A DNA stretch of 64,000 nt, taken from positions 62,001-126,000 of the forward strand of contig NZ_MTQO01000050.1 in NCBI RefSeq assembly GCF_001984155.1, written 5' to 3'. How positions within the stretch are numbered: the first letter of the stretch is position 1; each line of letters begins with the position of its first letter. The position numbers were made by a program, and so were the translations under genes. The DNA comes from Actinosynnema sp. ALI-1.44. GTDB taxonomy: Bacteria > Actinomycetota > Actinomycetes > Mycobacteriales > Pseudonocardiaceae. Of this stretch, positions 15,854 through 20,266 are shown piece after piece. The notes under the pieces were generated by a model. That model did not search any database. It had not been told where the DNA came from and worked only from the letters and a program-made list of their open reading frames with translations.

Positions 15854-16177
15854 CTACGCCAGCTCCCCTCGGGCATTGGCACGGAGCACGGGCGCAGTCG
15901 GCGACAGGTCGTGCACGGCGGCGAGCGATTCGGCGTCCACCGAGTCCGCGTCGGTGACCACGGCAGCGGCTTCGAGGCCGTCGGCTCCGCTGGCCACGGC
16001 CGCGGCGACGGCGGCCTGGAGCGCGGTCAACCTCAACGACGGCAACGCGACCGTGCAGGCGGAGTACGTCCGGCCCATCGTGTCGCGGACCGCCGCGCCC
16101 TCCGCGGCACCTGTCCGGGCCCTGGCCGACCGCGCCAGCGTGATGATCTTGCTGTCCTCCGGGTCGAGCTCAGCCAC
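15854..16177 (-). CDS. Cytidine deaminase-like protein lacking zinc ligands
   Basis: The product is 107 residues. The pattern [43 protein letters not shown] matches the cytidine deaminase fold, in which the second part normally contains His/Cys-Ala-Glu. Here the equivalent reads TALQAAV, without Glu or Cys. The second Pro-Cys-x2-Cys element is also absent. It is therefore probably catalytically inactive. Homologues sit next to era in other actinobacteria, including mycobacteria. The first codons overlap the last bases of the CorC-like gene (16170). Confidence 0.7.
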
Positions 16178-18061: not shown

Positions 18062-20266
18062 TCACCGACCACGGCGGTGGTCGCTCCCGGTGCGCGGCTT
18101 GCGGATCTCCGTCTTGTCCTCGTCGACCTGCCAGCGCTCGTAGGCGTCCACGATGTCCGCGACGAGCTTGTGGCGGACCACGTCCGCGCTGGTCAGGGTC
18201 GAGAAGTGGACGTCGTCCACGCCGTCGAGGATATCCCGCACCACTTTCAGGCCACTGCGCTGCCCTCCGGGCAGGTCGACCTGGGTGACGTCACCGGTCA
18301 CCACGATCTTGGACGAGAACCCGAGCCTGGTCAGGAACATCTTCATCTGTTCCGGCGTGGTGTTCTGCGCCTCGTCCAGGATGATGAACGCGTCATTCAA
18401 CGTGTTGTGCGTCAGCAGGTAATCCTCGGTGACATACAACGAGTCGGCCGCCGCCACCTGGATGCACACGGCCTCTGCGCGACCAGCGGGCTCGATGCTG
18501 TCGATGTGCCGCATCGGGCGTCCACCACCGCCAGCAGCGTGGTACTTCTCCCGCTTGCGAGCGAGCCGGAAGGGCTCGATGCCCGATGGAAGGCGGAGAT
18601 CGACGATGTGTGCGTCGTGGCGGTAGGCGACATCGCGGCCGTTGGCACGACCGGGCTTCCGGCCTTTCGCGGGGCGCACTCGCGTGTAGGCGACACCACC
18701 AAGCGACCTGACCAGCCCGATCACGCCATCCTTGAGCGCGGGCGACGTGGTCGTGTACTGGATGCGGCAGGTCCGGTCGAGTTGGGTGACCGGGCCGCCA
18801 TCGCTGTCGAGCAGTCCCTGCAGGATGGCGAGACGGACCTCAGTGGTGTTCTGGAGGTAGACATCCGGAATGAACTTCGAGTGCGACTTCATGCCGAGTA
18901 GGTTGAGCGAGCGGAGCGCACCCGTCACCGGATTCTCCAGGGTGATGACGTCACCCGGCTCCCGCACCCGGTTCAGGATGTAGTCCGGGCCGCTCTTCCA
19001 CCGAACCGCGACGCCAGGTAGCGCGAATTCCAGCGCTTCGACGAGTTCCGGGTCCCCGGTGGAGAAGGAGGGGGTGGTCGCCCCTGTCAGGCATCCGTCG
19101 CCCAACAACAGGCCGAGAGCGTACGGATCCATCGGGACAGTCCGCTCGGGATGACACACAGGCGCGGACAGCACCGGCAGTTCGTAACGCCGGGCATGCG
19201 CGGCACGCAGCCTGCCGATCATCTCCTTGGTCTGGAGTACTCGCCAAGGCTTGTTCCGGCGTCGGTCCGAAGCAGTCCGGACCGTCCAGAGGTGCTCACC
19301 ACAGCAGAGCGCTGACGCGCCGTCCTGAGCAGTGACGCGGTAGATGTCCTTCTCGCCCTGGGGGTACACGCCCAACACGGGTGTAGGTTCGCCATTCGAT
19401 CCGATGACCAGATCGCCGACCGACAGCTCGCCGATCGGGCGGAAGCCATCCGGCGTGAGCACCTTCGTGGACACCGGTTGCGCCCGACCACGCATGTACG
19501 CGAGCGGCGCGACCTCGATCGTGCCCGCCTGGGTCAGCCTCGGGATCGACTCCGGGTCGACCATGTCGTGCAGCGCGTCGTACAACGGCCGCAGGTACGG
19601 GTCGATCTTCTCGTAGAGGGTGCCGGGCAGGTAGCCCAGCCGCTCCCCCGCCTCGACCGCCGGCCGGGTCAGGATGATCCGGTTGACCTGCTTGGCCTGC
19701 AGCGCCTGCACGGCCTTGGCCATCGCCAGGTACGTCTTGCCGGTACCGGCCGGGCCGATGCCGAACACGACGGTGTGCTTGTCGATCGCGTCGACGTAGT
19801 GCTTCTGGTTCAGCGTCTTCGGCCGGATCGTGCGGCCGCGCCTGGACAGGATGTCCAGGCTGAGCACCTCGGCCGGGGACTCGGCCGTGCCTGCGGAGAG
19901 CATGCCGATCGAGCGCCGGACGGCGTCGGCGGTCAGCGGCTGGCCGCTGCCCGCGAGCGTGGACAACTCGGCGAAGACGCGCTCGCCGAACGCCACGTCG
20001 GCCGGGCTGCCCGACAACGTGACCTCGTTGCCGCGGACGTGGACATCCGCGGCAAGGAGTTCCTCGACGATGCGGAGGTTCTCGTCGCGCGAGCCGAGCA
20101 GCGACAGCAGTGCCGCGTCGGGCACGGAGAACCTGGACTGCGCCGCGTGACCGGGCTGATCGGACTTGGGGGCGGACGCGTTGGGGTCCACCTGAGGTGA
20201 GCCGTTCTTCCCGTTGACGGGAGTCTCGGATGATCGGGCGGCTCCACCCGGTGCGGTACCGGCCAC
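18062..20266 (-). CDS. phoH: PhoH-family ATPase interrupted by an in-frame intein
   Basis: The product is 734 residues, against about 330-360 for the family. The host protein is residues 1-261 plus 622-734: Walker A GPAGTGKT at 171-178, GERLGYLPGTL, Walker B FIILDEAQNTTPEQ at 627-640, and the sensor block VTGDVTQVDLPGG. The junction sequence AYMRGR/TLNDAF is contiguous in ordinary PhoH proteins, so the 360-residue insert between them (A262-N621) is an intein that must be spliced out for function. PhoH proteins are cytoplasmic ATPases, often linked to RNA metabolism and encoded next to ybeY. The start is GTG, and the first 45 residues are low complexity. Confidence 0.95.
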   Translation of the reverse strand: MAGTAPGGAARSSETPVNGKNGSPQVDPNASAPKSDQPGHAAQSRFSVPDAALLSLLGSRDENLRIVEELLAADVHVRGNEVTLSGSPADVAFGERVFAELSTLAGSGQPLTADAVRRSIGMLSAGTAESPAEVLSLDILSRRGRTIRPKTLNQKHYVDAIDKHTVVFGIGPAGTGKTYLAMAKAVQALQAKQVNRIILTRPAVEAGERLGYLPGTLYEKIDPYLRPLYDALHDMVDPESIPRLTQAGTIEVAPLAYMRGRAQPVSTKVLTPDGFRPIGELSVGDLVIGSNGEPTPVLGVYPQGEKDIYRVTAQDGASALCCGEHLWTVRTASDRRRNKPWRVLQTKEMIGRLRAAHARRYELPVLSAPVCHPERTVPMDPYALGLLLGDGCLTGATTPSFSTGDPELVEALEFALPGVAVRWKSGPDYILNRVREPGDVITLENPVTGALRSLNLLGMKSHSKFIPDVYLQNTTEVRLAILQGLLDSDGGPVTQLDRTCRIQYTTTSPALKDGVIGLVRSLGGVAYTRVRPAKGRKPGRANGRDVAYRHDAHIVDLRLPSGIEPFRLARKREKYHAAGGGGRPMRHIDSIEPAGRAEAVCIQVAAADSLYVTEDYLLTHNTLNDAFIILDEAQNTTPEQMKMFLTRLGFSSKIVVTGDVTQVDLPGGQRSGLKVVRDILDGVDDVHFSTLTSADVVRHKLVADIVDAYERWQVDEDKTEIRKPRTGSDHRRGR
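18404..19483 (-). other. Intein coding segment within phoH (360 residues, LAGLIDADG endonuclease domain)
   Basis: The segment codes for A262 to N621 of the precursor. Splicing blocks: an N-terminal Ala start (AQPVSTKVLTPDGFRPIGEL), block B GEHLWTV with Trp327, block F AVCIQV with Cys601, and block G YLLTHN followed by Thr. Two LAGLIDADG helices are LGLLLGDGC (384-392) and LQGLLDSDG (482-490). The lack of a nucleophile at position 1, the Trp-Cys-Thr triplet (block B Trp, block F Cys, block G Thr619) and Thr as the first C-extein residue together fit class 3 inteins. The insertion site is the conserved stretch just before Walker B. The endonuclease domain looks full-length. Confidence 0.9.

Follow-up and report, generated by a model that had tools for sequence, protein, structure and literature searches.

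The window analysed here is a 64,000-nucleotide stretch of the genome of Actinosynnema sp. ALI-1.44 (contig NZ_MTQO01000050.1, positions 62,001 to 126,000), and our subject is an intein that lies within its phoH gene. The gene is a minus-strand open reading frame (ORF) for a PhoH precursor of 734 residues, listed with a GTG start; the true start may lie further inside the listed frame. The Pfam family PhoH (PF02562) matches the precursor in two stretches (E 4.1e-90; 301 bits against a cut-off of 27), and between them, at precursor residues 476-537, stands a match to Pfam LAGLIDADG_3 (E 1.2e-07, above its cut-off). The two PhoH stretches flank an in-frame insert of 360 amino acids, precursor residues 262-621, which separates AYMRGR from TLNDAF, begins with Ala and ends with Thr-His-Asn; the first residue after it (+1) is Thr. 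Six of the eight genomes of the genus (L048-L053) have a phoH gene without the insert, in which AYMRGR is joined directly to TLNDAF. The boundaries are therefore exact to the codon, and an earlier note on this DNA, which had described the insert, had them right to the base. An assembly artefact is ruled out as the source of the insert, since the same insert is present in independent genomes.

We conclude that the insert is very probably a class 3 intein with an apparently intact LAGLIDADG endonuclease in a housekeeping phoH gene, splicing and homing by the route proposed below. The insertion point is 83 residues past the Walker A motif of PhoH, GPAGTGKT (residues 171-178), and the +1 residue stands 8 residues before the LDE (630-632) of the Walker B motif, IILDE. 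The site thus falls between the two motifs, as the earlier note had it, and it is reasonable to suppose that the PhoH ATPase is inactive before splicing.

Class 3 assignment

The insert has no Cys at position 1, where Ala stands; it has Trp66 at B:12, Cys340 at F:4 and Thr358 at G:5, with the penultimate His359, the final Asn360, Thr+1 and a HINT fold, the combination that marks class 3. Residues are numbered within the intein from here on; Trp66, Cys340 and Thr358, the Trp-Cys-Thr (WCT) set, are precursor residues Trp327, Cys601 and Thr619. A confident structure model combines the HINT splicing fold with a PI-SceI-like LAGLIDADG endonuclease. In structure comparison, Trp66 and Cys340 align with the engineered Trp and Cys of gp41-1_WCT, and Cys340 also with the block F Cys of MchDnaB1. 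This match of Trp66 and Cys340 to solved class 3 structures, together with the conservation described next, supports the class 3 type that had been suggested for the insert from Ala1, the Trp/Cys/Thr set and Thr+1. A class 1 reading is ruled out by the want of a nucleophile at position 1. The parts of the locus are collected in Table 1.

Table 1. Parts of the phoH locus, in window coordinates
Feature	Position	Strand	Basis
PhoH precursor gene (host protein and intein)	18062..20266	-	734 aa; PF02562, E 4.1e-90, two stretches
N-extein, PhoH residues 1-261, ending AYMRGR, including Walker A	19484..20266	-	sequence, Pfam, empty sites
Walker A of PhoH, GPAGTGKT, residues 171-178	19733..19756	-	read from sequence
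Intein, 360 aa, class 3 type	18404..19483	-	empty sites, conservation, structure alignment
HINT splicing domain, N-terminal part, intein residues 1-95, blocks A and B	19199..19483	-	structure matches
His64-Leu65-Trp66, block B (B:10 His, B:12 Trp)	19286..19294	-	His64 and Trp66 in 138/138; structure alignment
LAGLIDADG homing endonuclease domain, about intein residues 117-300	18584..19135	-	Pfam LAGLIDADG_3; PI-SceI matches
First LAGLIDADG motif, residues 120-130, catalytic Asp129 by motif	19094..19126	-	conservation, helix
Second LAGLIDADG motif, residues 214-229, catalytic Asp228 by motif	18797..18844	-	conservation, helix
HINT splicing domain, C-terminal part, residues 320-360, blocks F and G	18404..18526	-	conservation, structure alignment
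Cys340, block F:4, predicted first nucleophile	18464..18466	-	138/138; structure alignment
Thr358-His359-Asn360, block G:5-G:7	18404..18412	-	138/138; aligned to THN of gp41-1_WCT
C-extein, PhoH from Thr+1 (TLNDAFIILDEAQ...) to stop, including Walker B	18062..18403	-	sequence, Pfam
Walker B of PhoH, IILDE, residues 628-632	18371..18385	-	read from sequence

Conservation of the splicing residues

His64, Trp66, Cys340, Thr358, His359 and Asn360 do not vary across 138 distinct PhoH inteins (138 of 138), of which one is viral; the set was drawn from 169 PhoH loci, 163 of which, duplicates included, bear an intein. Extraction for this set required THN ahead of the C-terminal junction, followed by Thr, Ser or Cys, and the counts for THN and the +1 residue are to that extent predetermined. 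The filter removed no intein-bearing ORF, and a looser extraction gave THN/T (a slash marks the junction throughout) in 162 of 163; in the exception the boundary had been misplaced. Not counted among the 138 are L152, with an intein at the same site, THN/T and a Walker A off the search pattern; L089, whose intein halves are in different frames; and L285, a match at a contig end.

Of the 138, 122 begin with Ala and 16 with Ser. The four Ser1 rows in a thinned 98-row intein tree need four separate changes, and such repeated switching between Ala1 and Ser1 is expected if position 1 takes no part in the chemistry. All 16 Ser1 inteins (L074, L116-L118, L121, L279 and others) keep the full WCT set.

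Two same-genus copies that are 90% identical (G000, the window's genome, and G005) were compared by the ratio of nonsynonymous to synonymous substitution (dN/dS), which is 0.03 for the splicing parts; the two exteins give 0.03 and 0.05, and the endonuclease 0.25. Chance is not at issue, because the same residues occur in 138 of 138 homologues and the splicing-part ratio is 0.03. The dN/dS values are the strongest evidence here that splicing would work in nature.

Repeated decay of the endonuclease

The LAGLIDADG domain named in the earlier note is present, with its Pfam match and with two helices (residues 120-129 and 214-228), each carrying a catalytic Asp. The suggestion that the intein may still home holds at the level of sequence, both catalytic residues being in place, and the freed window intein is probably still able to cut DNA.

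Among the 138 PhoH inteins, Asp129 is kept in 133 and Asp228 in 124. Nineteen have lost an Asp or are shorter than 340 residues (L084 and the viral L181 being counted by length alone), and all 19 keep WCT. The 17 bacterial rows among them that have a lost Asp or short length need at least 15 changes on the tree; the endonuclease has therefore been damaged repeatedly while the splicing residues are retained. In the decayed rows the endonuclease falls from 0.71 to 0.58 in mean identity to the window copy; the two splicing parts lose less, going from 0.82 to 0.78 and from 0.86 to 0.84. In L089, from a 78%-complete genome (G300), the split of the intein between frames may reflect a pseudogene or a sequencing error.

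Host range and mobility

We found the phoH gene in 387 of 390 genomes of the family (one genome per species): 332 have an uninterrupted PhoH (E <= 1e-75), and 55 carry this type of intein at >=61% identity in at least one stretch (hand count). Extraction of 54 of these 55 loci gave PhoH with the intein at the same place, the remaining one being L089. The other three genomes (G114, G198, G314), whose assemblies are fragmented (710-920 and 610 contigs), have neither an uninterrupted PhoH nor the intein, and their matches are at 33-38% only. In wider sampling, 56 of 397 genomes of the order and 18 of 396 of the phylum had a match at E <= 1e-40, some of these matches lying outside PhoH.

A scan of named genomes returned 392 related stretches, and the best 80 all have the PhoH motif LDEAQN and WCT; their hosts include Streptomyces, Lentzea, Kutzneria, Glycomyces and Actinoallomurus, among others. 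Both endonuclease Asp residues are present in 79 of these 80, a sample that leans to intact copies. In a plasmid collection, a single one of 634 matching records covers >=80% of the precursor, and it is a chromosome-sized Nonomuraea record.

The intein and its host gene have different histories. We compared them using membership of the host's own family (f1) as a label, taken from taxonomy codes and not from trees, and tested after the 98-row intein tree had been seen. In an 89-row version the label needs 9 changes on the intein tree versus 2 on the extein tree, and in a 92-row version 8 versus 2. When the 52 f1 rows are forced into one group, the log-likelihood falls by 240 units for the intein data (approximately unbiased (AU) test, p 1.3e-13) and by 0.39 for the extein data (p 0.475). 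Given this disagreement, the intein has crossed family borders. All trees are "quick" trees: the 98-row tree holds 98 of 99 selected inteins, with only every fourth Streptomyces, and long-branch rows were left out of the 92-row tree (six, the viral one among them) and the 89-row tree (nine); the 92-row extein tree was flagged for long branches meeting. Precise empty sites and a history unlike that of the host gene, marks of a mobile intein, are both found here. On the tree the window intein pairs with the other copy from its genus (support 99), and the host gene of that copy is likewise the closest one (99% identity); nothing shows a recent arrival in this strain.

Proposed mechanism and alternative readings

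By analogy with published class 3 inteins, Cys340, aided by His64 and Thr358, would attack the Arg261-Ala262 bond (precursor numbering), so that the N-extein becomes an internal thioester branch. Thr+1 would attack the Cys340 thioester to form a second branch, Asn360 would cyclise and release the intein, and an O-N acyl shift would leave ordinary PhoH of about 374 residues, less any correction of the start. The freed intein or the precursor could then cut an intein-less phoH at the RGR/T codons, repair copying the intein in.

An addition to this scheme, and not a replacement for it, would be a redox switch: Cys60-Cys61, near His64, would form a disulphide with Cys340 under oxidation and restrain PhoH until the stress is over. 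A redox disulphide to the catalytic Cys is described for the class 3 intein DnaBi1 of M. smegmatis (PMC6195587), and among the 138 PhoH inteins Cys60 is present in 102 and Cys61 in 117. Against this, 35 of the 138 have Ala at position 60 and 21 have Ser or Thr at position 61; Cys pairs at the corresponding positions of 17 of 79 viral relatives, which lie in other proteins, make the pair look like a lineage trait. Cys48 of DnaBi1 is described as non-conserved, and the patchy presence of the intein, in 55 of 390 genomes, speaks against an indispensable switch. We consider such a switch improbable.

It is very unlikely that the intein is a decayed, non-splicing one that leaves the strain without PhoH from this locus. 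The genome does have a second PhoH-domain gene (G000:C47:333662-334273, in an open frame of 525 amino acids), which would fit such a loss, but all catalytic residues are intact, the frame is open throughout, and dN/dS in the splicing parts is as low as in the exteins. Class 2-type splicing, in which Thr+1 would attack the N-terminal junction directly and Cys340 would not be a nucleophile, is consistent with Ala1 and a +1 nucleophile but has next to no probability, given that Cys340 and Trp66 are invariant and align with class 3 structures.

Viral relatives and a possible phage origin

Among the best 80 of 375 relatives in IMG/VR, WCT is present in 80 of 80; 79 lie in other proteins and one in PhoH. 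The latter, L181, is a PhoH gene with an intein on the 100-kb viral contig IMGVR_UViG_3300029915_000731, and its junction, AFMRGR/TLNNAF, is the same site as that of the bacterial PhoH intein. GK immediately precedes the intein in 75 of the 79 others (hand count, starts unadjusted), and in 85 of 91 relatives when starts are adjusted and bacterial relatives added, an adjustment that is biased towards GK, as it searches over a few residues for G followed by K or R. A strict Walker A pattern fits 48 of the 91. A second viral scan, with the L181 intein as query, returned 12 loci, ten of them new (L291-L300); nine of the ten have GK before the intein, and none has the PhoH motif LDEAQ in the intein-bearing frame. 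PhoH has its own GK/T in Walker A, yet the intein occupies R-G-R/T.

In an unrooted 86-row tree, built from 22 PhoH rows chosen by hand among the 138 and 64 of the 91 others with near-copies thinned, the PhoH rows lie on one side of a branch (support 100) and L181 falls outside the 21 bacterial ones (98.6). The 98-row PhoH-only tree, which has no outgroup, places L181, on a long branch, inside a mixed bacterial clade and is not support for the sister position.

We offer tentatively, as a possibility well short of even, that the PhoH intein came from class 3 inteins of the P-loop G-K/T site, jumped in a phage PhoH to R-G-R/T and then seeded actinobacteria. The GK before most viral relatives and the single PhoH clade, with the viral copy outside the bacterial ones, are consistent with this course; the tree has no root and hence no direction, and it holds one viral row. 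If it is true, a short chemical match (Gly at -2, a basic residue at -1, Thr or Ser at +1), and not P-loop function, would set the limits on where class 3 inteins can land. The P-loop position is known for TerL1-a and other inteins (PMC5050341); "PhoH" does not occur in that paper. A phage origin of class 3 inteins in general is a proposal of Tori and Perler, as cited in PMC3196547.

A phage PhoH record, MK557849.1 (L290, Caudovirales GX15bay), was rejected as a same-site intein, its junctions lying elsewhere (approximately LIGG/SLRL...THN/TNFIV). The intein in this protein annotated PhoH is of the same kind, at 36% identity.

Gene neighbourhood and other inteins of the genus

The neighbouring genes run HIT, phoH, ybeY, CNNM/CorC and Era-like GTPase, an order that identifies the host as the chromosomal housekeeping PhoH. 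A small ORF nearby (15854-16177) has no Pfam match. The genome, of 11.7 Mb, has one copy of the PhoH intein.

Two further inteins were seen in the same genome. A ribonucleoside-diphosphate reductase alpha gene (NCBIfam; L096:1129-4659, plus strand, G000:C44) contains a Cys1 intein with the junctions VAVNQ/CFAPE...GLAHN/GGKRKGA, so that its +1 residue is Gly and there is no C-extein nucleophile. The Gly+1 junction occurs in five of the eight genus genomes (L096, L005, L013, L014, L016), and the gene is empty in G004 and G007 (AVNQ/GGRRKGA); GGRRKG in the empty genes (L301, L302) contrasts with GGKRKG beside the junction in intein-bearing ones. Another, uninterrupted reductase-type gene is present in all eight genomes and is the only one in G003. 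The DnaB gene (L095:1854-4442, minus strand, G000:C50) carries a class 3-looking intein at the P-loop, with the junctions RPGVGK/ALALDT...MIPTHN/STLGLDW, the same in six of the eight genomes (L003, L004, L007, L008, L009, L012).

Comparison with known systems

The PhoH intein is not a rarity; it is a good example of something known, and ordinary for intein specialists. The earlier note's statement that few class 3 inteins lie outside phages and DnaB or replication genes does not stand beside the published mycobacterial PhoH inteins and a 2020 survey of class 3 inteins (PMC6195587, PMC7360933, PMC7891396). The Fig. 6a legend and methods of PMC6195587 give class 3 PhoH inteins of M. fortuitum (OBK00716) and M. 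xenopi (EID13626), in the same host protein and of the same class, the likeness resting on the legend; M. smegmatis, too, has a PhoH intein (PMC7360933); and the survey counts 1701 class 3 inteins, 82.5% with LAGLIDADG motifs (PMC7891396). We also found the same intein at the same site in genomes of another family (f8, L266-L272) of the same order. Further literature on PhoH inteins, judged mostly from listings, held nothing more of relevance, and earlier intein lists may include PhoH.

What is added here is the host range, the repeated endonuclease decay with splicing residues kept, and a viral same-site PhoH intein that is sister to the bacterial clade in the 86-row tree, a natural history beyond that found in the literature searches made. 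Full, decaying and empty states of one site across one family form a clean series for endonuclease loss with splicing kept. The viral copy at the same site gives a handle on who infects whom, and the P-loop look-alike junction makes limits on new insertion sites testable.

The solved class 3 inteins Msm DnaBi1 (6bs8) and MchDnaB1 (6rix) share the HINT fold with the PhoH intein; Trp B:12 is aligned for both and Cys F:4 for MchDnaB1, and their chains have 139 and 145 residues against 360. Msm DnaBi1 has no endonuclease, interrupts the P-loop of DnaB and carries Asp at B:7, a position taken by Cys in the PhoH intein (PMC6195587). Inteins of phage terminases, helicases and other P-loop proteins (for example in Phrappuccino and many IMG/VR contigs) share WCT and THN at 33-44% identity, and both LAGLIDADG Asp residues are present in 75 of the 79 viral relatives outside PhoH among the best 80 of 375. 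Of these 79, 75 sit directly after G-K, as in a P-loop (G-K followed by T or S), whereas the PhoH intein sits after R-G-R, outside the P-loop. PI-SceI, the yeast VMA intein, lies in another host protein and is about 20% identical to the PhoH intein; it splices by the class 1 route. The viral PhoH intein L181 shares protein, site and WCT with the window intein at 54% identity, and has 333 residues against 360.
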